64,000 nucleotides of DNA from positions 62,001-126,000 of the forward strand of contig NZ_NEGG01000008.1 of NCBI RefSeq assembly GCF_002135295.1. The letters run 5' to 3'. Made by a program: the position numbers and the translations under genes. The notes below the pieces were generated by a model. It had not been told where the DNA came from. It ran no database searches and saw only the letters and a list, made by a program, of their open reading frames with translations. Of the stretch, positions 7,035-55,361 are shown piece by piece (position 1 is the first letter of the stretch; every line of letters starts with the position of its first letter). Source of the DNA: Acinetobacter sp. ANC 5054 (GTDB lineage Bacteria > Pseudomonadota > Gammaproteobacteria > Pseudomonadales > Moraxellaceae).

Positions 7035-7454
7035 TTATTTTTTTTCGATCAAATGATCAAGACTAATTTTACCTGCACCATGTAACATTAAGAATAATAA
7101 GCCACCTGACATAGCTAAGTTTTTCATAAGGTTAATTGCATCCTTAGCACCATTATGGAAGATAAATGCTGTAATTAAGCTAAATACCGTTAAGCCCAAT
7201 GCCGCAAAGCATGCTTGAAATCCAAAGAGTAAGGCTAAACCACCGCCAAGCTCAACCAAAATCGTCAAGGGAAGCAGCGCTGCTGGAACACCCATCGACT
7301 CCATATAACCTGCCGTTGCGCTATAACCTGTAATTTTTCCCCAGCCTGCCACTATAAAAATATAGGCCATTAAAATACGTGCAATGAGGCTGATCACGGC
7401 ATTAACTTGTGGCTGTAGACTGAAATTTTTCACGATCACATTTGGATTAAACAT
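7035..7454 (-). CDS. DoxX family integral membrane protein
   Basis: A 139-residue inner membrane protein with four hydrophobic helices and the family blocks ARILMAYIFIVAGWGKI and LTILVELGGGLALLFGF. The DoxX family includes a thiosulfate:quinone oxidoreductase subunit and many uncharacterised members linked to redox or sulfur stress. The substrate here is unknown. The ATG at 7454 is preferred because TAGG lies about eight bases upstream and the preceding 30 codons of open frame are polar and not conserved in style. No partner gene is adjacent. Confidence 0.85.
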   Translation of the reverse strand: MFNPNVIVKNFSLQPQVNAVISLIARILMAYIFIVAGWGKITGYSATAGYMESMGVPAALLPLTILVELGGGLALLFGFQACFAALGLTVFSLITAFIFHNGAKDAINLMKNLAMSGGLLFLMLHGAGKISLDHLIEKK

Positions 7455-7647
7455 AGTAAAACCTAATTTAATATTGCTCAGAAGATGTGCACAGCTTAGG
7501 TCGTTTCTTATTCTATTTAAATATGATTTTTTAAGATTCATCATTCTATTTATAGAACAAGCGCTTGGGAAATTAATTACGTTTTAATACTGACTTTGCC
7601 TATCGGGACTGATAGCATTTGGGCACTATTTCACGTATTAAAGCCCC

Positions 7648-8277
7648 ATGGAACTGATTGATTTTATATTACATGTTGATGACCATTTACTCGAGTTTAT
7701 AACCAATTATGGCGTATGGATATATGCAATTCTGTTTCTAATTATTTTTGTCGAAACGGGTCTAGTGGTCATGCCGTTTTTACCCGGTGATAGCTTACTT
7801 TTTGCAGCGGGTGCATTGGCAGCGTCTACAGGTGTCATGGATCCATGGGTTTTGGTCGTTTTACTCTTTATCGCAGCAGTATTAGGCGATACGTTGAATT
7901 ACCATATTGGTAAATATATTGGTCCACGTGTATTTGAAATTGAATCTCGTTTTATTAACCGTCAGCATTTGGTAAATACACAAAAATTCTTTGAAAAACA
8001 TGGTGGTAAAACCATTATTTTTGCACGTTTTATTCCATTCGCACGTACATTTGCACCCTTTGTCGCAGGTGCAGGCAGCATGAATTATAAGTTTTTCCTG
8101 ACGTATAACATGATTGGGGCCATTTGTTGGGTAGGTTCGTTTATTGCCTTAGGTTACGTATTTGGCAACATGCCGATTGTCAAAGACAACTTTACCCACT
8201 TAATTTTCGGCATCATTATTATCAGTGTATTGCCGGGTATAATTGGCTTTATTCGTGCCAAACTTAAAAAATCATAA
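7648..8277 (+). CDS. DedA family membrane protein
   Basis: A 209-residue polytopic inner membrane protein with the DedA/SNARE-associated (VTT) signature: the re-entrant FVETGLVVMPFLPGDSLLFAAGALAA region near residues 35-60 and the GGKTIIFARFIPFARTFAPFVAGAG block near 114-138. DedA proteins of the YqjA/YghB/UptA type are known or proposed to move undecaprenyl phosphate or phospholipids across the membrane and depend on the proton motive force. Because Und-P carries the polysaccharide precursors made later in this window, a role in lipid carrier recycling is plausible but not shown here. It is convergent with the LysE gene. Confidence 0.92.
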   Translation: MELIDFILHVDDHLLEFITNYGVWIYAILFLIIFVETGLVVMPFLPGDSLLFAAGALAASTGVMDPWVLVVLLFIAAVLGDTLNYHIGKYIGPRVFEIESRFINRQHLVNTQKFFEKHGGKTIIFARFIPFARTFAPFVAGAGSMNYKFFLTYNMIGAICWVGSFIALGYVFGNMPIVKDNFTHLIFGIIIISVLPGIIGFIRAKLKKS

Positions 8278-38063: not shown

Positions 38064-39560
38064 TTAAGATTTCCTAAAATTGATTATTTTTGAAAAATCA
38101 ATCAATGGGTTTCCAATATTGCGCTTATTATATATCAATACATTAAAAAATATACTTATCAATCCGATTAACATTGAGCTAACCAAAAACACATATTTAT
38201 TCGAAAATGACGAAAAAATAGTATATAGAGAAAAACCTACAATAAATGTAAGTAATATAGGTACTAATATATCCCACACGATCCACTTAATTTTATGTTC
38301 ATTTAAAAATTTATTTACAATATAAAATCCAACCAATAAAAAAGTACAGACATTAACCAACAACCAAGGAATTGTTGCTCCAATCATCCCATAACTTTTA
38401 ACTGAATAAATAATCAATGGAATAACAACAATCAGTCCTACAACTCCTGTATAAAGATTAATTTTTGTATAACCATTAGCCAAAGCTAAATAAAATGGTG
38501 TAAGTTGTAAACACAAAAAAAAGCTACCTAATACAAGAATTTTTAAAACATTGTTTATACTTTCAGCAATAAATGGTTTGCCAATCCACAACTCTACTAA
38601 TGGTATTGAATATAAAAACAAACAAAGTGAAATTGGTGCTGATATTATGGTAATCAAAAAGGAGTACTTATGAAAATTATTTCCAATTAATTCATTATTA
38701 TTTTGGGATACATACAAAGAAAACAATGGAAACACAGCGGCCATAACGGGTATAACAATCATTGTTGGTACTTGCGACAATGTGCTTGCAATTGAATAAT
38801 ATCCAAACTGTTCCATACTTAGATACTTACTTGTAACCAGTTTATCAATTTGAATATTTATAGCTGATATTAATGCTATACCCATCATCCCTAGTGCATA
38901 TCTACTATTAGATTTTAATAGGTTCAAAGAAAAGATTGGAGAATTACCCGAAAGACATGTCTTCAAGGCATTTCTGAAAAAAAGTATTAAGACAATATTA
39001 CACAAAATCTGCCATATAAAATATACATCTAACTTTGGATAAAAATATATCGGAATTAGAACAAGACCTGACCGAAACAAACTCCAAACAATTTTTACTT
39101 TATTCGTTAATACTTGATGCTGTAGTCCATTCAAACCACCCTCATATAGTGTCGAAAATAATTGTAAAGCAACCCCAATACCTATTAAACGCAAATAATA
39201 TGATACACTCTCAGGGGTATATAATTTAGACTGCAAAAAATTATTCGCAATATAGTTTGAAGCACAAATTACAACTACAGTAATAATTAAACATATATAG
39301 AAATATATTTTTTCAAATGTATAAACCAAGTTGGACTTTTCTGATATTTCTATGTCACGTGCTAATTGCCTTGTTAATGTTGCTGTTAGTCCAGCATCTG
39401 CAAAAGCCAAAAGGCCTAATATAACTGTATAAAAATTAATTATTGCATATGATTCTATACCAAGTAGATCTATATAAAATCTTACAAAAATAAATATTGA
39501 AATAAAGCCCCACAACTTACCAGCATAATTAGCAATGATATTTTGCGTTACTTTTTCCAT
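38064..39560 (-). CDS. wzx: Oligosaccharide-unit flippase Wzx, distal copy
   Basis: A 498-residue membrane protein with 12-14 hydrophobic helices of the polysaccharide-transporter/MVF superfamily. The N-terminus NIIANYAGKLWGFISIFIFVRF and the FADAGLTATLTRQLAR block fit Wzx proteins. It should flip the Und-PP-linked repeat unit across the inner membrane. The ATG at 39560 has GGTAGG nine bases upstream; the earlier TTG is in the ribosome site itself. A second flippase is at 54189-55361. Confidence 0.9.
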   Translation of the reverse strand: MEKVTQNIIANYAGKLWGFISIFIFVRFYIDLLGIESYAIINFYTVILGLLAFADAGLTATLTRQLARDIEISEKSNLVYTFEKIYFYICLIITVVVICASNYIANNFLQSKLYTPESVSYYLRLIGIGVALQLFSTLYEGGLNGLQHQVLTNKVKIVWSLFRSGLVLIPIYFYPKLDVYFIWQILCNIVLILFFRNALKTCLSGNSPIFSLNLLKSNSRYALGMMGIALISAINIQIDKLVTSKYLSMEQFGYYSIASTLSQVPTMIVIPVMAAVFPLFSLYVSQNNNELIGNNFHKYSFLITIISAPISLCLFLYSIPLVELWIGKPFIAESINNVLKILVLGSFFLCLQLTPFYLALANGYTKINLYTGVVGLIVVIPLIIYSVKSYGMIGATIPWLLVNVCTFLLVGFYIVNKFLNEHKIKWIVWDILVPILLTFIVGFSLYTIFSSFSNKYVFLVSSMLIGLISIFFNVLIYNKRNIGNPLIDFSKIINFRKS

Positions 39561-39633
39561 TTTTATAAACCTACCCAATTTAAAATACTGACAAATTAAC
39601 AGTCTAAAATCTTCTATAAATAACTAATAACAA

Positions 39634-40162: not shown

Positions 40163-41032
40163 CTATGATATCTTCTTAGGGAGAAACCGCGCTTTGTTAT
40201 TATATAAATATTTATAAACCTGACGCTCTAACAAAGAATTAGTTTTTAAATATGTTTTATCTTCTAAATAGAAAATACTTTCCACTTCACTTATTTCAAT
40301 ATCATTTTTTTTTGAAAACATTACTTTTTCATTAGTTAATACATCTTCTAATATCATATATTTTGAATCAATATTTCGTAGTTTTACACTAGTATTCAAA
40401 ATTACAAAATCTTGCAGCCAACCCATTAGTAATTCAAACTTTTCATCCAAAGTTTTTTTCACATAAAATTTTGCATTTTCCATTAATTTTGCAGGACTTC
40501 CTGCATATGATCGGTCAGGTAAAGTATCCTTTGTAAGAACAGAATTAATTAATGCTACACTTCTCCAACCTAATTTTAGTCCAGATCCAACGACACAACT
40601 CCCAACTAACCATACGTCATCTTCTATTATGGTTGATCTTTTGGAAAAAAGAGTACAGCCTTCAATTTGTTCACCACTTGCAACATGTGTCCATATTTGT
40701 GAATACATTCCAACGCGAACGCCATTGCCAATTGTTAAACCACCAGCACCATCTAAAATAGTATTTTGTCCAAACCAACAATTATGCCCTATATATACAT
40801 GCTGCTCGGCCATAACTAACATATCATTATGCAATACATTCCAATCCCCCATTTTAAAATTACCATGGATGAATATTCGTGTATTATCATTAATAATATT
40901 ATTATCACCAATTTCGGCTTTTAAATTTTTATCATTACCTAAAACTTCAATAACAACATTTTTTCCAATTTTATTATATTGACCTAAAATTACATTTGGA
41001 TGTATTTTTGCAGTAGCATCAATTTGATTCAT
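40163..41032 (-). CDS. Left-handed beta-helix acyltransferase with C-terminal extension
   Basis: A 289-residue protein. Residues about 8-195 are hexapeptide repeats of the LpxA-like fold (IHPNVILGQYNKIGKNVVIE through VLTKDTLPDRSYAGSPAKL), including a WTH loop (SQIWTHVASG) and SYAGSPAKL at the end of the helix as in many sugar O- or N-acetyltransferases. The last ~90 residues form an extra domain (KKTLDEKFELLMGWLQDFVIL onward) that I cannot assign. It overlaps the upstream aminotransferase-like gene by four bases (ATGA), so the two are probably translated together. Confidence 0.82.
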   Translation of the reverse strand: MNQIDATAKIHPNVILGQYNKIGKNVVIEVLGNDKNLKAEIGDNNIINDNTRIFIHGNFKMGDWNVLHNDMLVMAEQHVYIGHNCWFGQNTILDGAGGLTIGNGVRVGMYSQIWTHVASGEQIEGCTLFSKRSTIIEDDVWLVGSCVVGSGLKLGWRSVALINSVLTKDTLPDRSYAGSPAKLMENAKFYVKKTLDEKFELLMGWLQDFVILNTSVKLRNIDSKYMILEDVLTNEKVMFSKKNDIEISEVESIFYLEDKTYLKTNSLLERQVYKYLYNNKARFLPKKIS

Positions 41033-42111
41033 TGACTATTCCCATTACTATGATTAACCCACCATCCACATGGTATTGCTAAAAATTTATTCATAAATTC
41101 ATTAACGCCTTTCAATTCTCTAGAATTATTGAATATGGAATAAATATTATTATTAATATGTACACCAGTAGCATACCAATTTTGGTTTCTAAACTCTTCC
41201 AATGTTTTTGCTTTATTTTCACATAAAACACCATACACCCAATAATTTGGTTGTGTATTATCTACGAGAGTGATTGGTTTAATATTTTTTGCTTTATCCT
41301 GAATTTCATTGTCCCACCACTTAGAATTTTCTTTTTGCTTTTCTAATAACTTGGGTAAATCATTCATTTGCATATAGCCAATATATGAATTAATCTCACT
41401 CATCGTGGCGCCATATCCTTCCAAAGTAATATCACAATCTGGATTTATTTCACCGTTCAATGTTCTAAATTTTTTTCTATCTATACCGTAGTCCCGAACC
41501 AATATCCCCTTCTCATACAGTTTTTGGGAAGAAAAACTAATCGCTGCTCCATCTATAGTATTTGGTAACCTGACTGTTTGAAAAGAAAATACTGTCAAAT
41601 CAGCACCTAAATTACCTGCTTTTTGACCATAATATTGTGAACCAAATGCTTCAATACAATCATCAACCACCCATAATCCATGTTCTTTAGCTAAGCTATT
41701 AACTTCATTAACATTACCTATAAAACCACAAAAATGATTATGAAAAATTGCTTTGGTTCTTAATGTAATTTTGCTTCTAACATCATCCACACAAACACAA
41801 CCAGTTAAAGGATTAACATCAGCCCAAACTACATTAATCCCTTTAATAATAAATGGTTGATTAGATGCCAAACAACTAACTGGAGATGCAATCACTTCAT
41901 CCCCTGGTTTAATGTCCAAAATTGATAATGCCATTAACATTGCTTGATTATATGAACTAATAGTTAAAACATAGGGAGTTCCTATAAACTTAGCTAGTTC
42001 TGTCTCAAAATTTCGCCCATGTTTTCCATAAGCCAATTGACCTGAATACAAGATATTCTCCAATTCTGGAAGAATATCTTGAGGCATATAAGGTTTGAAA
42101 ATTGGAGTCAT
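41029..42111 (-). CDS. DegT/DnrJ/EryC1 fold protein lacking the PLP lysine (pseudo-aminotransferase or altered activity)
   Basis: A 360-residue protein of the nucleotide-sugar aminotransferase fold, paralogous to the gene just upstream. Where the paralogue has FSFQAIKHLTTIDGG, this one has FSFQTVRLPNTIDGA: the Schiff-base lysine is Arg181 (codon AGG, 41569-41571). The phosphate-binding SGT of the paralogue (NSGTAAL) is SYN here (SSYNQAM). The pyridine-ring Asp is kept in VVDDCIEAFG. It also lacks the last helix after the shared IPCGWWV. It therefore cannot be an ordinary transaminase; a regulatory partner of the upstream enzyme or a different PMP-type chemistry (compare ColD, with His at this site) is possible. 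The start overlaps the upstream stop (TAATG). Confidence 0.87.
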   Translation of the reverse strand: MTPIFKPYMPQDILPELENILYSGQLAYGKHGRNFETELAKFIGTPYVLTISSYNQAMLMALSILDIKPGDEVIASPVSCLASNQPFIIKGINVVWADVNPLTGCVCVDDVRSKITLRTKAIFHNHFCGFIGNVNEVNSLAKEHGLWVVDDCIEAFGSQYYGQKAGNLGADLTVFSFQTVRLPNTIDGAAISFSSQKLYEKGILVRDYGIDRKKFRTLNGEINPDCDITLEGYGATMSEINSYIGYMQMNDLPKLLEKQKENSKWWDNEIQDKAKNIKPITLVDNTQPNYWVYGVLCENKAKTLEEFRNQNWYATGVHINNNIYSIFNNSRELKGVNEFMNKFLAIPCGWWVNHSNGNSQ

Positions 42112-43199
42112 TACCAACCTTTTCGAATTAAATTGATCATTTTATCCAAATCTTCTTTGCTAACCCACCAACCACAAGGGATATGTACCATCCGTTCGTA
42201 AAAATTGTCTAGGTTAGTCAGTACTGTTGGATAATCATTAAGATAATCATGCTGATCATTTCGTTTATGTAATTCTGATGCCATAAATCCATTTTCTGCC
42301 ATCATGTTTATGAAATCTGATCTCTTTTCAACTTTAAGTGTATAGAGCCAATATGATGGTTCAGAATTTTCGTAATATTCTACTAATTCAACTCCTTTGA
42401 CATTTTTTAATTTTTCATCGAGGTATTTACCATTTTGAATATATTGCTCGACAACTTTATCGATACCCTCTAATTGGACTAAACCAACACAAGCATTCAC
42501 ATTATTCATGTGATACTTATAACCTTGTTGAGTAATATTATTTTCTAATCTAGTCCTTTTTTTATCCAAGCCAAACCATCTAATTACCTTACCTTTTTCA
42601 TACAAGTCTTCATCTTGAATCTGCAGTGCACCCCCATCAATTGTAGTAAGGTGTTTGATAGCTTGAAAAGAAAAAACCGTGAAAGGAAAATGATTGCCCG
42701 TTCTTTTTCCGTCAAACTTAGCCCCTAAAGCATGAGCTGCATCTTCAATCACAGGAATATTATATTTTTTTGATATTTCTTGTATTCGCTTTACATCAAC
42801 AGGTATACCTGCATAGTCAACAACAATAATTGCTTTTGTTTTTGAGTTGATTACCTTCTCAATTGAATCAGGACATATATTTCCGGTGTTGTAATCTACA
42901 TCAGCCCAACGAACTTTGGCACCAACCATTTTAATTGCAACATTGGTTGGCTCAGCTGTTAAAGCTGTACTAATAACTTCATCACCAGCTTGCACACCAG
43001 CTAAGATCAAAGCAAGATGTAAAGCTGCTGTTCCTGAATTTAAAGATAAGGTATGTCCACTACCTATATATTCCTCAAATTTTCTTTCAAATTTTTCAAC
43101 AATATCTCCTTGAGAAATATAGCCACTATAGAGGACTTCTTCTATACGTGGCATTAATAAATCTTTAGCAGGCAGATTAGTTTTAACTAGCGGAATCAT
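42111..43199 (-). CDS. DegT/DnrJ/EryC1 nucleotide-sugar 4-aminotransferase, PseC-like
   Basis: A 362-residue PLP enzyme. The phosphate-binding motif is LNSGTAALHLAL, the ring Asp is in VIEDAAHALGAKF, and the Schiff-base lysine is K182 in FSFQAIKHLTTIDGG, a context close to PseC-type UDP-4-keto-sugar aminotransferases. It should transfer an amino group from glutamate to the 4-keto sugar made by the adjacent FnlA-like enzyme. It lies one base after that gene's stop and is coupled by TAATG to the lysine-less paralogue, suggesting the two proteins work together. Confidence 0.9.
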   Translation of the reverse strand: MIPLVKTNLPAKDLLMPRIEEVLYSGYISQGDIVEKFERKFEEYIGSGHTLSLNSGTAALHLALILAGVQAGDEVISTALTAEPTNVAIKMVGAKVRWADVDYNTGNICPDSIEKVINSKTKAIIVVDYAGIPVDVKRIQEISKKYNIPVIEDAAHALGAKFDGKRTGNHFPFTVFSFQAIKHLTTIDGGALQIQDEDLYEKGKVIRWFGLDKKRTRLENNITQQGYKYHMNNVNACVGLVQLEGIDKVVEQYIQNGKYLDEKLKNVKGVELVEYYENSEPSYWLYTLKVEKRSDFINMMAENGFMASELHKRNDQHDYLNDYPTVLTNLDNFYERMVHIPCGWWVSKEDLDKMINLIRKGW

Positions 43200-44439: not shown

Positions 44440-46302
44440 TTAACATCCACTAGAGTAGCCAGCGACATATCTTTTCAATATCCCTTGTAAAACTATTTGT
44501 TTACCCTGCTTATTGTCATATTCGCATAATTTTATTAAATCAATATAAACAGATTTAATATCATCAAACTCTGTGTAGCTTTCAAATGACTTTAATATTC
44601 GTTCATGATCCGTTTTTTCCACATTATTAGAATCTATCAGGAGTTCTTCATACATCTTCTCACCAGGACGCAAGCCAGTAAATTGAATTGCAATATCACC
44701 AATGCCTTTATCATCAATATGTTTAAAACCGCTTAATCGAATCATTTGTTTAGCTAAGTCTACTATTTTAACTGGCTCCCCCATATCCAGTAAAAACACA
44801 TCACCGCCATTACCCATCGCACCTGCCTGAATAACAAGCTGTGCTGCCTCAGGAATGGTCATAAAGTATCGTGTGACTTCTGGGTGCGTTACTGTAACAG
44901 GACCCCCTTTGGAAATTTGTTTTTTAAACAAAGGAACAACAGAACCTGATGAACCTAAAACATTGCCAAAACGCACAATACTGATTTGCGTGTGTGGATT
45001 AGTAGAAGCTAAACCTTGGCAATACAACTCTGCCATACGTTTAGACGCGCCCATGATATTGGTTGGGCGTACTGCTTTATCTGTTGAAATTAAAACAAAA
45101 GTTTCTATCTCTTGTGCCACAGCAGCATCTACACTACGCTGTGTACCAATTGATGTATTGTAAATTCCTTCAAATGGATTTACTTCCACAAGTGGCACGT
45201 GTTTATAGGCAGCAGCATGATATACCGTCTGTATTGCGTACTGTTGCAATATACGTTCCAGTTTTGACTGATTGGTGACAGAACCCAACACAGGTACAAC
45301 ATGCACACCTGAAGCTTGTAACTCTCGATCAATCGAATACAAGGCAAATTCAGACATTTCAAACAGCACCAGCATTTTTGGCTGATGCTTCACAATCTGA
45401 CGGCAAAGTTCAGAACCAATCGACCCCCCTGCCCCAGTCACCATCACGACTTTATCTTTAATATTTTTTTCTAAAAGCTCAGGCTTCGGTGGCACAGGAT
45501 CACGGCCAAGCAAGTCAATAATATCGACTTCACGAATATCTGAAACTTGAACTTGACCATCAACCAGTTGTGTAACCCCTGGCAATTCCATAATTTTGAC
45601 ATCTGCTACATCAAAAGACTCAATCAGCTCTTTTTTACGTGTTCGCCCTACAGATGGCATCGCCAACAAAACTTCTTCAATACCGAATTTCCCAAGTTTT
45701 GCTTGCGCTTTTTTGGGTGAATAAATTTTTAAACCACTCAGTGACTGCCCCTGTAAAGAGCGCTTATCGTCAATAAAACACACGGGCAAATAGTCATCTG
45801 AACGGTTTAAAGCAGCGGCAATTTGCTGACCTGCCAGCCCTGCACCATAAATAGCCACACGTTTACGGCTTTGTTTTTTTGCAAAGGTTTTGAGGGTTGC
45901 ATAGCGAATGACAGCACGGCTCCACCACATGTAAGAAAACAGCATAAAGCCATACATCAGTGGAATACTCATCGGAATAAATGCGACATTTAATTTTTTA
46001 ATCGTGTACAACGCCACGATTTGGATAAATGTACCGATTAAAATCCGGAGCAAATAGTCTTCATTAAATGAACGAACAATCGCACGGTAAATACCAAGTA
46101 AGGCAAAAATCAGAATGCCAATCACGCCGACATAAATATACCAAGCATCCAACCCTTGCATAACCTGAACATTGGGACGTGCCAAACGAACAGCATAAGC
46201 CAGCCACATCATCAGTGGTAAAACACAAATATCCATCAGCACCAAAACGATTTGTTTTTGGCGACGCGGTAATGATGCTATAGAACGGATAAAGTCTTTC
46301 AC
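44440..46302 (-). CDS. weeK: Nucleotide-sugar 4,6-dehydratase, membrane type (WeeK/Gdr, PglF/WbpM-like)
   Basis: A 620-residue protein. Four N-terminal hydrophobic helices are followed by a CoA-binding-like Rossmann segment (VAIYGAGLAGQQIAAAL) and a C-terminal dehydratase domain (MVTGAGGSIGSELCRQIV, STDKAVRPTNIMGASKR). It should convert UDP-GlcNAc to the 4-keto-6-deoxy sugar in the QuiNAc4NAc/bacillosamine pathway; WeeJ and WeeI follow the chemistry. The first open codon is TTG at 46323 but GTG at 46302 has GAG at the right distance and starts at the usual N-terminus, so I use it. Equivalent to WeeK of the emulsan cluster. Confidence 0.92.
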   Translation of the reverse strand: MKDFIRSIASLPRRQKQIVLVLMDICVLPLMMWLAYAVRLARPNVQVMQGLDAWYIYVGVIGILIFALLGIYRAIVRSFNEDYLLRILIGTFIQIVALYTIKKLNVAFIPMSIPLMYGFMLFSYMWWSRAVIRYATLKTFAKKQSRKRVAIYGAGLAGQQIAAALNRSDDYLPVCFIDDKRSLQGQSLSGLKIYSPKKAQAKLGKFGIEEVLLAMPSVGRTRKKELIESFDVADVKIMELPGVTQLVDGQVQVSDIREVDIIDLLGRDPVPPKPELLEKNIKDKVVMVTGAGGSIGSELCRQIVKHQPKMLVLFEMSEFALYSIDRELQASGVHVVPVLGSVTNQSKLERILQQYAIQTVYHAAAYKHVPLVEVNPFEGIYNTSIGTQRSVDAAVAQEIETFVLISTDKAVRPTNIMGASKRMAELYCQGLASTNPHTQISIVRFGNVLGSSGSVVPLFKKQISKGGPVTVTHPEVTRYFMTIPEAAQLVIQAGAMGNGGDVFLLDMGEPVKIVDLAKQMIRLSGFKHIDDKGIGDIAIQFTGLRPGEKMYEELLIDSNNVEKTDHERILKSFESYTEFDDIKSVYIDLIKLCEYDNKQGKQIVLQGILKRYVAGYSSGC

Positions 46303-46363
46303 AAGATGCTCAAATGGGGTCAATAAAGCGGATGAGAGCGCATATTATACGCTCTTTTCAGGT

Positions 46364-47533
46364 TTAGATTTTTGCGATCACCGCTTGGATAGCATCCACG
46401 GTTTTTTGCAGGCTGTGCTCAGACAATGTTGGGTGTACAAGGAACATTAAGCTTGTTGCACCAAGCTGTTTAGCTTGCGGCAAAGACTCTGCAGGACGCC
46501 AAGGCGTACCATCAAATGCTTTTTCTAAATAAACTTCTGAACACGAGCCGCTAAAACAAGGCACATTCAATGCATTAATTTCTGCCATGATTCGATCACG
46601 CGACCAGTCTTCAGGCAAGGCTGAAGTATTCACTTGCACATAGCATTTATAGGCTGCATGCACATAATCATTTGATGGTTTTGCTACGGTAAAATACGGA
46701 CTATTTTCAAACGCCGCTTGGATACGCGCCATATTGGCATTTCGTTTTGCTGTCCATTCTGGCATTTGTTTGAGCTGTAAACGGCCAATCACCGCCTGCA
46801 TTTCCATCATGCGCCAGTTGGTGCCAAATGAATCATGCAGCCAGCGGAATCCCGGCGGATGCTGAGTGTTGTAGACGCTGTCATAATTTTTGCCATGATC
46901 TTTATACGACCACATTTTTTTCCATAGACTTTCATCATTGGTGGTGACCATACCGCCTTCACCGCCCGTGGTCATAATCTTGTCTTGGCAGAAAGACCAT
47001 GCGCCAATATGCCCGATTGAACCTGCTGATTTGCCTTTGTACATTGCACCATGTGCTTGGGCACAATCTTCAATCACGTAAATGCTTTTTTCCTCAGCCA
47101 ATTGCATGATTGGATCCATATCACACATCCAACCTGCCAAATGCACACAAATAATGGCTTTGGTATTGGGCGTGATCACCGCTTCAATAGTACGGCGTGA
47201 GATATTTTGTGAATCCAGTTCAACGTCCGCAAAAATCGGATTGGCACCCGCAGTGACAATCGAGCTTGCCGAAGCTAAAAACGTACGTGAGGTGACAATC
47301 ACATCATCGCCTGCGCCAACACCTAAGGCTTTGAGTGCTACATCCAATGCGACTGTACCATTGGCAACGGCAACGGCATGCTTGGTTCCTGCAAACTGTG
47401 CAAATTCCTTTTCAAATTCACGGCATTCTTGACCGGTCCAATAATTCACTTTATTGGATAAAAGGACTTTTGATACCGCATCGGCTTCTGCTTGAGTAAA
47501 GCTTGGCCAAGGCTCAAATGCACTGTTTAACAT
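46364..47533 (-). CDS. weeJ: DegT/DnrJ/EryC1 aminotransferase (WeeJ/PglE-like)
   Basis: A 389-residue PLP aminotransferase. The phosphate site is VANGTVALDVAL, the ring Asp is in VIEDCAQAHGAMY and the Schiff-base lysine is K185 in SFCQDKIMTTGGEGG, all intact. It should aminate the 4-keto sugar from WeeK at C4. AGGAAAACTCC precedes the ATG. It lies between the acetyltransferase and dehydratase genes of the same pathway. Confidence 0.93.
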   Translation of the reverse strand: MLNSAFEPWPSFTQAEADAVSKVLLSNKVNYWTGQECREFEKEFAQFAGTKHAVAVANGTVALDVALKALGVGAGDDVIVTSRTFLASASSIVTAGANPIFADVELDSQNISRRTIEAVITPNTKAIICVHLAGWMCDMDPIMQLAEEKSIYVIEDCAQAHGAMYKGKSAGSIGHIGAWSFCQDKIMTTGGEGGMVTTNDESLWKKMWSYKDHGKNYDSVYNTQHPPGFRWLHDSFGTNWRMMEMQAVIGRLQLKQMPEWTAKRNANMARIQAAFENSPYFTVAKPSNDYVHAAYKCYVQVNTSALPEDWSRDRIMAEINALNVPCFSGSCSEVYLEKAFDGTPWRPAESLPQAKQLGATSLMFLVHPTLSEHSLQKTVDAIQAVIAKI

Positions 47534-47568
47534 GGAGTTTTCCTAGTCTCAAAATCGAGTTTAAAAAT

Positions 47569-48225
47569 CTATTTTTTCGTCACAATACGGGCAGGATTTC
47601 CCACCACTGTTGCGCCTGCAGGCACACTTTTAGTGACAACAGCACCCATACCCACAACTGCGCCAGCGCCAATCACTAAGGGTTGATCGGGTGTGCCCTG
47701 CTTGATCATCGCACCTGCGCCAATATAAGCATGGTCGTGTATATGAATATTGCCATTACATTTTACGCCTGGCGCAAAAGTAACGAAATCCCCAATCACA
47801 CAATCATGCTCGACATAACTGTATAGATTGGCATGAAAGCATTTGCCAATTTTAATGTTTGAAGTGATGCTCACAAAAGGGCTCAACGCTGCACCCATGG
47901 CAATATTTGCTTGATCCATCAGCACAATATTGTTTGCATAAATTGACCAGAGTGAAATACCATCTGCTTCAAGGCGAAGCGCAATTTTTTCACGGACACG
48001 GCTATTGGCAATCGCAATTTGCACATATTTTTTAGATGCCGATTCACTTAAAAAAGTTGGGTAATTCATGGCACGATGACCGTTTACTTCTGCAACCGAT
48101 TCCAAGGCATCATCAATAAATACAATTTCTGAAGCATCGCTTGTACGTGCTAATTGCTGACGCGCCACAGGCATTAAACTGCGCCCGCAGCCTGAAGCCC
48201 CATAAATTGCATAGAGCTTAGTCAT
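47569..48225 (-). CDS. weeI: Sugar N-acetyltransferase (WeeI/PglD-like)
   Basis: A 218-residue protein. An N-terminal Rossmann-like UDP-sugar domain (KLYAIYGASGCGRSLMPVA) is followed by a left-handed beta helix (VSITSNIKIGKCFHANLYSYVEHDCVIGDFVTFAPGVKCNG onward) ending TVVGNPARIV. This is the PglD/NeuD architecture; the His in VEHDCVIGDF is the likely base. It acetylates the 4-amino group to give the di-N-acetylated sugar. Its start overlaps the end of the upstream gene for the initiating transferase. Confidence 0.93.
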   Translation of the reverse strand: MTKLYAIYGASGCGRSLMPVARQQLARTSDASEIVFIDDALESVAEVNGHRAMNYPTFLSESASKKYVQIAIANSRVREKIALRLEADGISLWSIYANNIVLMDQANIAMGAALSPFVSITSNIKIGKCFHANLYSYVEHDCVIGDFVTFAPGVKCNGNIHIHDHAYIGAGAMIKQGTPDQPLVIGAGAVVGMGAVVTKSVPAGATVVGNPARIVTKK

Positions 48226-48838
48226 CTTTAGACTCCGAAGTACCGGTAAATTTGCTCATGGTGGCTTCACCTTCGGCGCTGATATCATCCTTAGCAATCA
48301 CTTTTTTGACTGTTTTCAGCATGATTTTAAAATCGAGCCATAGGGATTGATTCTCAACATACCATGTATCGAGTTCGAATTTCTTTTCCCATGAAATGGC
48401 ATTGCGGCCATTCACTTGCGCATAACCCGTAATCCCAGGGCGAACATTATGACGCTTGGCTTGCTCACTATTGTATAAAGGCAAATACTCCATCAGCAGC
48501 GGACGCGGCCCGACAATGCTCATCTCGCCTTTAATGACGTTCCACAGTTCTGGCATTTCATCCAAACTGCTGGAGCGCAGCATTTGACCAAAAGGCGTCA
48601 GACGCTCACTGTCTGGCAATGGTTTGCCTTGTGCATCGACAGCATCTTTCATACTGCGGAATTTAATCATTTCAAAGGGTTTACCCGCTAAACCCGGTCG
48701 GACTTGCCGAAATAAAACAGGAGAACCTAGATTTTTCCGTACTTTATACGCCACTAAAGCGTATACAGGAGACAGCAGCACCAGTGCAGATGAAGCAATT
48801 ACGATATCCAATACACGCTTTAACATTGATTCACTCAT
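48218..48838 (-). CDS. weeH: Initiating sugar-phosphate transferase (WeeH/PglC-like), wza-proximal copy
   Basis: A bacterial sugar transferase, about 206 residues from the ATG at 48838 (MSESMLKRVLDIV); an in-frame ATG four codons later is equally plausible, and a longer frame from 48880 is not supported. FEMIKFRSMKDAVDAQGKPLPDSERLTP, SSLDEMPELWNVIKGEMSIVGPRP (catalytic Asp-Glu) and GYAQVNGRNAISWEKKFELD define the PglC family. It should put the di-N-acetylated sugar phosphate from WeeK/J/I onto undecaprenyl phosphate. It is a close relative of the 33183-33803 protein. Confidence 0.92.
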   Translation of the reverse strand: MSESMLKRVLDIVIASSALVLLSPVYALVAYKVRKNLGSPVLFRQVRPGLAGKPFEMIKFRSMKDAVDAQGKPLPDSERLTPFGQMLRSSSLDEMPELWNVIKGEMSIVGPRPLLMEYLPLYNSEQAKRHNVRPGITGYAQVNGRNAISWEKKFELDTWYVENQSLWLDFKIMLKTVKKVIAKDDISAEGEATMSKFTGTSESKDD

Positions 48839-49003
48839 TTCTTTTGCCGCGCTTTTACAGAATAACTCTGCCTCAAGCATGATTAATGTGCTGCATCAGC
48901 CTATGTTTTAAGGCCATAATACAGACAGCTTTCAATCTCGTTATTAAAATATAGCCCGCATGACTAAGCATTTTAATAGTGAAATTTTGGCCTATATCAT
49001 AGC

Positions 49004-53595: not shown

Positions 53596-54189
53596 TTATA
53601 CAGATTTGATTTTTTTGGCCGGAATACCGACATACACCCCTGATTCAGGCAAAGGTTTTGACACTAAACTACAAGCACCAATCACGCTATCATCGGCAAT
53701 AGTTACACCATCAAGTACCGTAACCCGTGCACCTAGCCAAATATTTTGCCCTAAACTCACGCCCTGCTTGGTAATCGCATCTTTCACCAACAGATCAGGC
53801 TCACCAAATTTATGGTTGCTGGCAATCAAAATACTTTGCGTACCAATACGGGTATTATCGCCAATCGTCACACCGCCACAACCATTGATAAAAGACTTAG
53901 AGTTAATGCTGACGTCTTGACCAATCGACACCTTGCCACCAAAGCATTTGATATAACAGCTTTCACCAATAAAACTGTGATCTGCAATTTCTAAAATCGC
54001 ACCTTGCTCGACAATTAAACTGACATGATCTCCAATATAGACATTCTTTCCGATCTTGACTTGGCCATTAATCTCTAGGGTACACGATTTGCCGAAGTAA
54101 CGGAATTGTGTGCCAAATGCCATGTTGTACAACACTTTACGGCACTGTGAAGCAAACCAATTCATGTATTTTAAGATTTTAAAAAACAT
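53596..54189 (-). CDS. Hexapeptide-repeat acyltransferase
   Basis: A 197-residue left-handed beta-helix protein with many I/V-G-x4 repeats (VKIGKNVYIGDHVSLIVEQGAILEIADHSFIGE onward), the SNHKF His region and the terminal ESGVYVGIPAKKIKSV. A polysaccharide acetyltransferase by context. ATG 54189 overlaps the upstream flippase stop (TGATG); the open frame six codons further upstream starts with GTG and is less likely. Confidence 0.85.
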   Translation of the reverse strand: MFFKILKYMNWFASQCRKVLYNMAFGTQFRYFGKSCTLEINGQVKIGKNVYIGDHVSLIVEQGAILEIADHSFIGESCYIKCFGGKVSIGQDVSINSKSFINGCGGVTIGDNTRIGTQSILIASNHKFGEPDLLVKDAITKQGVSLGQNIWLGARVTVLDGVTIADDSVIGACSLVSKPLPESGVYVGIPAKKIKSV

Positions 54190-55361
54190 CAGTTTTTGTT
54201 TCTCCACACCACATATAAAATGGCAAAGTTATAAAAAATTAATGCCACAGGCACCGCAAGTAACATATACACTTTATCAGCAAAGACTGCATAGAAGCCT
54301 GCAAATAAAGCAAACTTAATGATGAGTTCTACGATTTGCAACTTAAACAGCACTTGGCTGTTACGCTGAGCAATCAAAAAAGCGGAACTTGGTGGATTAC
54401 AGAAAATCGCCCAATAGCCCAAAGCTAAAATTTGGAAATAGCTCGAAATACCCACCCATTCACTGCCAAAAACCCATAAATATAAAGATTCAGGCAATAC
54501 AAAGACCAAGGCAAATAACGGCAGTGAAATTAAACTCAGTAGCACACTGGCTTTTAACGCATTCTGGCTTGAGTCCGCATCTTTAAATTTGCGAATAAAA
54601 AACTGACGCAGGGTTTGTGAGATTAGATTAATCGGGACACGCAAAGTCCGTTCAACAATGGCATAAAAACCCATCGCCTGCACACCGACAAAATGCGACA
54701 CCACATAGTAAGGCAAATTATGTGAAAAACTATTCAGCAATGCATGAGGCGTGTTGGCATAAATAAAATCTTTGTAATGTTTAAATGCCTGCCAACTCAC
54801 TTGATAGAGCTGATGTTTCAGTAAATAAATCAGCACCGCCACAATCATAATGACCGAGCTGAAGTTATAGCTGTTCACCAAACTAATTTGCATCACAAGC
54901 GGTAAAGACAGTTGAACCGCCACCACGATGGTACTACGAAAAACATTTAAACCTGCACAAAAATATTCTTTATGTGCGGAAAATTGATAATTATATAAAC
55001 TCTGAATCAGGGTATTGGCAAGCACGCCTGTGGCGACTGCACTTGCCATTTCAACATTTAAAATAAAGCTGATGAAGATGCCACTAAGAATCGCAATGCC
55101 CGTTGAGAACACCGCCCCTTCAAAAATCAGACTCTTTTTATCTTGCTCGTCCGCGACTAACAATGCTTGATCGAGACGTAAATTGGCAACGGTCGATAAA
55201 ACACTGACAATCGCCAATGCAATCCCGTAAGCGCCAAAGTCAGTAACAGAATATAGGCGTGTTAAAACAGGAAGTGCGATAAATGTAATTATCGCACCGA
55301 CCAGTAAACTGAGTGTAATCAGTCCAATGGACTGATATTTTGCGAAAACTTTCGCAATCAT
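54189..55361 (-). CDS. wzx: Oligosaccharide-unit flippase Wzx, wza-proximal copy
   Basis: A 390-residue membrane protein with 11-12 hydrophobic helices of the polysaccharide transporter family. The N-terminus IGLITLSLLVGAIITFIALPVLTRLYSVTDFGAYGIALAIVSVL is typical of Wzx/RfbX proteins. It should export the lipid-linked unit assembled by the proximal module. No polymerase candidate lies within this module. It is ten bases downstream of the epimerase gene. Confidence 0.88.
   Translation of the reverse strand: MIAKVFAKYQSIGLITLSLLVGAIITFIALPVLTRLYSVTDFGAYGIALAIVSVLSTVANLRLDQALLVADEQDKKSLIFEGAVFSTGIAILSGIFISFILNVEMASAVATGVLANTLIQSLYNYQFSAHKEYFCAGLNVFRSTIVVAVQLSLPLVMQISLVNSYNFSSVIMIVAVLIYLLKHQLYQVSWQAFKHYKDFIYANTPHALLNSFSHNLPYYVVSHFVGVQAMGFYAIVERTLRVPINLISQTLRQFFIRKFKDADSSQNALKASVLLSLISLPLFALVFVLPESLYLWVFGSEWVGISSYFQILALGYWAIFCNPPSSAFLIAQRNSQVLFKLQIVELIIKFALFAGFYAVFADKVYMLLAVPVALIFYNFAILYVVWRNKN

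Follow-up and report, generated by a model that had tools for sequence, protein, structure and literature searches.

A lysine-less DegT-family paralogue paired with a predicted sugar aminotransferase in Acinetobacter: a putative two-protein enzyme

The 64,000-nucleotide stretch of the Acinetobacter sp. ANC 5054 genome analysed here (the window; contig NZ_NEGG01000008.1, positions 62,001 to 126,000) contains two adjacent genes for paralogous proteins of the DegT family. One of them, referred to as K, is a PLP-type sugar aminotransferase by its motifs, and the other, referred to as R, has arginine in the column of the Schiff-base lysine. The question raised by this locus is what a protein with an aminotransferase fold but without the PLP lysine does beside an intact paralogue, and whether the two proteins act as one enzyme, as successive enzymes, or in some looser relation.

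The gene pair and its surroundings in the window

Both reading frames are open on the minus strand (Table 1), and both proteins belong to the DegT/DnrJ/EryC1/StrS family by profile (PF01041) and by fold, with 31% identity to each other over almost their full length. K contains S55-G56-T57 and has K182 within FSFQAIKHLTTIDGG, whereas R contains S53-Y54-N55 and has R181 within FSFQTVRLPNTIDGA, the arginine being encoded by AGG at 41571-41569. D153 of K aligns with D151 of R; an Asp of this type contacts the ring nitrogen in PLP enzymes. IPCGWWV is found in K as well as in R, and ATGA at 41032-41029 is the overlap of the R stop with the start of the next gene. The initial annotation had listed SGT and K182 in the upstream protein, SYN and Arg181 (AGG) in the downstream one, the retained ring Asp, the common IPCGWWV, the TAATG coupling and the four-base overlap of R with the next acyltransferase, all of which can be read from the DNA.

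Table 1. Coordinates of the features discussed, in positions of the window
Feature	Position	Strand	Details
K: PLP-type DegT sugar aminotransferase, 362 aa	42111..43199	-	SGT 55-57, D153, K182
R: lysine-less DegT paralogue, 360 aa	41029..42111	-	SYN 53-55, D151, R181, extra GEINPDCD loop, without C-terminal helix
AGG codon, Arg181 of R at the Schiff-base lysine column	41569..41571	-	
TAATG, one base common to K stop and R start	42109..42113	-	
FnlA-type UDP-GlcNAc 4,6-dehydratase/5-epimerase, 352 aa	43201..44259	-	TIGR04130 FnlA 499 bits, below the 730-bit cut-off
Hexapeptide acyltransferase, 289 aa	40163..41032	-	PF00132; 4-base overlap with R stop
GNAT-like protein, 166 aa	39634..40134	-	PF13527 22.4 bits, below the 25-bit cut-off

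In established pathways, UDP-4-keto-6-deoxy-HexNAc (L series) is the product of FnlA; a PseC-type enzyme introduces an amine at C4, and this amine is acylated by an acyltransferase. By analogy, the FnlA-type protein is likely the source of the 4-keto substrate and the hexapeptide acyltransferase likely acylates the new amine.

The best PDB sequence matches of both K and R are AtmS13 and CalS13 (4zwv, 4xau, 4zas), which also belong to the tied group of leading fold matches for each of the two; R differs from them in having neither the lysine nor the SGT loop, and these PLP enzymes are not known to work with a lysine-less partner. Both proteins score highest against PseC among the NCBIfam models, at 228.9 bits for K and 149.9 bits for R, far below the TIGR03588 cut-off of 423.5 bits. 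PseC and ArnB are UDP-sugar 4-aminotransferases of the same family and fold as K and R, and neither is known to have a lysine-less partner. ColD and E1, PMP-dependent dehydratases that like R have the DegT fold without the lysine, are both among the fold matches of R, and the titles of these PDB entries name the mutants H188N and H220K. The ColD/E1 family has His at the lysine position, and membership of R in it was rejected because R has Arg, not His, in this column.

A second 4-amino-sugar set adjoins the FnlA-K-R cassette at 44440-48880; it consists of a 627-aa dehydratase, a 389-aa DegT protein, a PglD-like acyltransferase and a sugar transferase, and resembles the gdr/qhbAB module for QuiNAc4NAc. 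The window also contains two initiating sugar transferases (PF02397; 33183-33803 and 48218-48880) and two flippase-like proteins (38064-39578 and 54189-55361), as if two polysaccharide synthesis modules lay side by side in one region. The 34 sugar modules reported across 237 A. baumannii capsule loci include, as here, fnl modules and modules for 4-amino sugars (qhbAB/gdr, for example); Table 7 of that source gives fnlA solely as fnlABC, and none of the modules in this table joins fnlA with two aminotransferases (PMC9676051).

Pairing of K and R across genomes and the genes around them

We collected 26 loci, namely the window, 13 genome loci found with R and 12 from further genomes, which overlap in part with the 23 R-bearing genomes described below. 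In all 26, R is open and has K upstream in the same orientation, and in 24 of them the two genes overlap or are separated by at most 21 bases. The gene coupling is not universal, as 170 bases separate K and R in L012 and a 181-aa hexapeptide-transferase ORF (7331-7876) lies between them in L058.

Searches with R at an E-value cut-off of 1e-45 detected it in 23 of 1,243 genomes: 3/175 in Acinetobacter, 3/397 in the family of G001, 3/351 in the family of G002 and 14/320 in the family of G003. A K-like match stands beside R in all 23, directly adjacent in 22 and with a 181-aa ORF between the two in G378. No K-like match without R was detected in these 1,243 genomes at that cut-off. Distant copies of either protein could escape the cut-offs used (1e-45 for R, 1e-60 or 1e-75 for K), and at most 5 or 6 candidates were scored per genome in the family-level R searches and in the 299-genome K search. 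With K as the query, the 175 Acinetobacter genomes again gave K in the 3 that have R and in no others, and the 299 Pseudomonadota genomes yielded two with K, the window's own and G1283, both of which carry a lysine-less partner. The initial annotation had proposed asking whether the lysine-less copy always stands next to a K/SGT copy, and this holds without exception in all 26 loci and all 23 genomes; lone or broken copies of R, decaying by stop codons, which it had named as the contrary case, are absent from both sets at the cut-offs used.

The pairing extends to distant relatives. The G1283 K is 47% identical to K, and its lysine-less neighbour carries FSFYPTR; this R-like protein, which falls outside the 120 best homologues considered below, keeps the Arg and does not keep Asn184. 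A search of plasmids with R gave no match at or above 60% identity, and from it came the sphingomonad plasmid CP099620.1 (L055), which carries FnlA-like, K-like, R-like and GNAT genes. Its K-like protein is 43% identical to K and has FSFQAIK, and its R-like protein is 28% identical to R, with FSFYANR and with DMT replacing SGT. The plasmid search with this R-like protein found no plasmid besides CP099620.1, and in the order of G1283 the sole match was G1283 itself (1/78 genomes).

The genes on either side of the pair are less constant. FnlA is not a fixed companion; it lies directly upstream of K in 19 of the 26 loci, and in L012 a 56% FnlA-like gene is found downstream. The stretches of L013 and L063-L067 have no FnlA; in these loci K follows a protein with a UDP-sugar dehydrogenase motif (Pfam-confirmed for L063), and the substrate may differ. 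A PglF-like dehydratase is located further upstream in L013, L064 and L067. Downstream of R are hexapeptide transferases, GNAT proteins (GNAT-like homologues directly follow R in several loci, e.g., L001, L002 and L008-L010) or other genes, including a FabH-type protein among those of L061. Similar-looking 223-aa proteins without a Pfam match occupy the acyltransferase place after R in L005 (9069-9740) and L057 (7156-7827). Because the gene after R varies between loci, the constant unit is K-R, and the idea in the initial annotation that all three proteins work together is less well supported.

In three loci K has been replaced. K of L003, L005 and L011 belongs to another K clade (support 100/99), and the corresponding R proteins fall into three different R groups. 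FnlA of L003 and L005 also groups together (98/97), as if FnlA and K had moved as one piece in these two loci. Among the columns of R, none changed convergently in this triple, a count exceeded in 48 of the other 167 triples, which amounts to no signal of K-R coevolution; FnlA of the same triple had 2 convergent columns, tied for most.

Conservation and ancestry of the lysine-less protein

Conservation was assessed in three sets: R with the best 120 listed of 2,038 homologues (E ≤ 1e-20), K with the best 120 listed of 7,980 homologues (from candidates capped at 8,000), and, for a second R clade, the best 120 listed of 411 homologues of the sphingomonad R-like protein. In the K set, K182, S55-G56-T57 and D153 are each invariant (121/121), as is characteristic of a PLP-type enzyme. 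R has neither the lysine nor the Gly of the SGT phosphate loop of a PLP-dependent DegT aminotransferase. The lysine column is Arg in 121/121 of the R set, and therefore Arg181 is more than chance or a sequencing error; it is likewise Arg in 120/120 of the second clade. Residue 54 of R is Tyr in 120 and Phe in 1 of 121, and Met in 105/120 of the second clade, where K has Gly in 121/121. The R/SYN signature proposed in the initial annotation is borne out within the R set by Tyr54 and Asn55 (120/121 for the latter) and breaks down in the most distant relatives, which have CLN, SYS or DMT. Some homologues of R bear the database names perosamine synthetase or dTDP-4-amino-4,6-dideoxygalactose transaminase, which are doubtful because the lysine is missing.

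Other residues of R are kept with equal strictness. Cys80 and Asp151 are found in 121/121 of the R set, and in the second clade Cys80, Ser83, Asp151, Ser176, Phe215, Arg216, Glu221, Ile222 and Tyr324 are each found in 120/120 and Asn184 in 119/120. At least 95% conservation in both clades is seen at 42 positions, of which 27 are common to K (including N84, R206, R216, W291, H318 and G349-W350-W351) and 15 differ or are less conserved in K (including C80, S83, H126, R181, N184, F215, E221, I222, D227 and Y324). Pocket segments contain 28 of the 42 positions (Fisher test, p 3e-12, a descriptive value since some segments were picked after the conservation was known). In the alignment, K has nothing equivalent to the stretch of R that contains G220-E221-I222-P224. 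Conversely, K228-Y229-H230 is kept in 121/121 of the K set, where R has G/A, A/G and mostly T/L at the equivalent columns; we take this region of K to reach into the PLP site of the neighbouring subunit in homodimers. R also ends sooner, with a median of 4 residues after GWW compared to 17 in K, and is without the C-terminal helix of K. Since the second R clade retains the tail, its loss is no defining trait of lysine-less partners.

R is under purifying selection, with dN/dS of 0.09-0.12 in three Acinetobacter pairs (dS exceeds 1.4 in two of them); the values among the Acinetobacter loci are 0.075 for K, in the single computable pair, and close to 0.02 for FnlA. The tree, built from 41 rows, recovers K as a single clade (14 rows, 99/98) and places R on one side of a branch (24 rows; support 81/63, 76% of bootstrap trees), so that R is likely one group. 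A sphingomonad/G1283 branch is present within K and within R separately. K and R look like sister groups whose divergence predates the separation of the sphingomonad-type from the Bacteroidota-type pairs; on this reading the duplication is the older event and the copies have stayed together since.

One enzyme or two

We favour the interpretation that K and R together constitute an obligate two-protein nucleotide-sugar aminotransferase, with R as its PLP-less partner subunit, and give this putative complex a probability of roughly 50%. The argument is that paralogy, loss of the lysine in one member, pairing in all genomes found and purifying selection together resemble a homomer that has become a heteromer, SPT being the precedent. 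In the proposed mechanism, FnlA would make the 4-keto-6-deoxy UDP-HexNAc, K with PLP on Lys182 would transaminate C4, and R would pair with K and shape, stabilise or gate its active site, perhaps with its conserved extra loop (F215-R216...G220-E221-I222...D227) lying between the subunits. R retains part of the framework common to K but not the lysine and the phosphate-loop Gly, and a hexapeptide, GNAT or other acyl-type enzyme would next cap the amine.

SPT is a heterodimer whose SPT1 subunit is without the PLP lysine and whose two subunits are both required in mammals (PMC6148460). K and R share with it a related PLP-fold pair, co-inherited, with one member without the lysine, the R group having support of 81/63; SPT differs in belonging to the alpha-oxoamine synthases with another substrate, and its heterodimer is proven, whereas the K-R complex is putative. 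In addition to this precedent, the pairing found in both search directions, the old co-inheritance, the modularity of K-R, the low dN/dS of R and the TAATG coupling speak for a single enzyme. Against it are the replacement of K in L003, L005 and L011 without convergence in R, the absence of gene coupling in L012 and L058, and a pocket in R conserved beyond what a plain scaffold would need, in the manner of a ligand site. Strict co-occurrence would likewise be expected of two successive enzymes, and intact K228-Y229-H230 fits K homodimers equally well. The structure models are of single chains (63 chosen rows for R and 32 for K). A particular form of the complex, an obligate heteromer with two different sites, K contributing the PLP transaminase site and R a PLP-free one for sugar nucleotides, appears rather unlikely to us.

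The same observations are the basis of the principal competitor, in which R acts in the same pathway as an enzyme in its own right, its old PLP pocket having become an Arg-based lysine-free site. The initial annotation had offered both a heteromer partner and non-transaminase chemistry as roles for R, and the results are compatible with either. Such an enzyme could be cofactor-free or use unbound PMP as ColD does, and could act on the FnlA product or on the 4-amino sugar made by K, for example as an epimerase or dehydratase. The exchange of K without matching change in R, the possession by K of its own K228-Y229-H230 and the ligand-like conservation of the R pocket make this a tentative possibility to be taken seriously. 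It would account for the 15 positions conserved in both R clades and not to the same degree in K, for D151 and S176 (241/241), for the intact cross-subunit motif of K, and for the lack of convergence in R after partner swaps. It fits less well with the fact that K was never found without R in the samples searched, though a plain 4-amino sugar should be usable alone, and with Arg in the column where ColD has His; Tyr/Phe or Met instead of Gly at residue 54 should presumably also disturb phosphate binding.

That R is a regulator or product sensor, PLP-free and binding the UDP-sugar product without forming a stable complex, in order to modulate K or pass the product on to the acyltransferase, seems improbable. 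The framework residues common to K that R keeps (N84, R206, R216, W291, H318, G349-W350-W351) would suit such a role, but there is no regulatory signal in the data and the type of gene after R varies. Recent decay of a duplicate, which the missing lysine and C-terminal helix might suggest, is rejected in view of the 31% identity to K, reading frames open in 26/26 loci, dN/dS of 0.09-0.12 and Arg in 241/241.

Obligate pairs with a lysine-less paralogue are known in another PLP family (SPT), and none was found for sugar aminotransferases in the literature searched; at the level of titles and the openings of abstracts, this literature contains no description of a lysine-less DegT partner or of such a K-R pair. 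If the two-site heteromer were true, an asymmetric enzyme with two functions would have arisen from a symmetric transaminase by an ancient duplication. The pair likely serves the making of an unusual surface sugar, and it occurs together in distantly related bacteria. The K-R genes of capsule and O-antigen regions may encode either a heteromeric enzyme or new PLP-free sugar chemistry, and the answer would improve the prediction of surface sugars from genomes.
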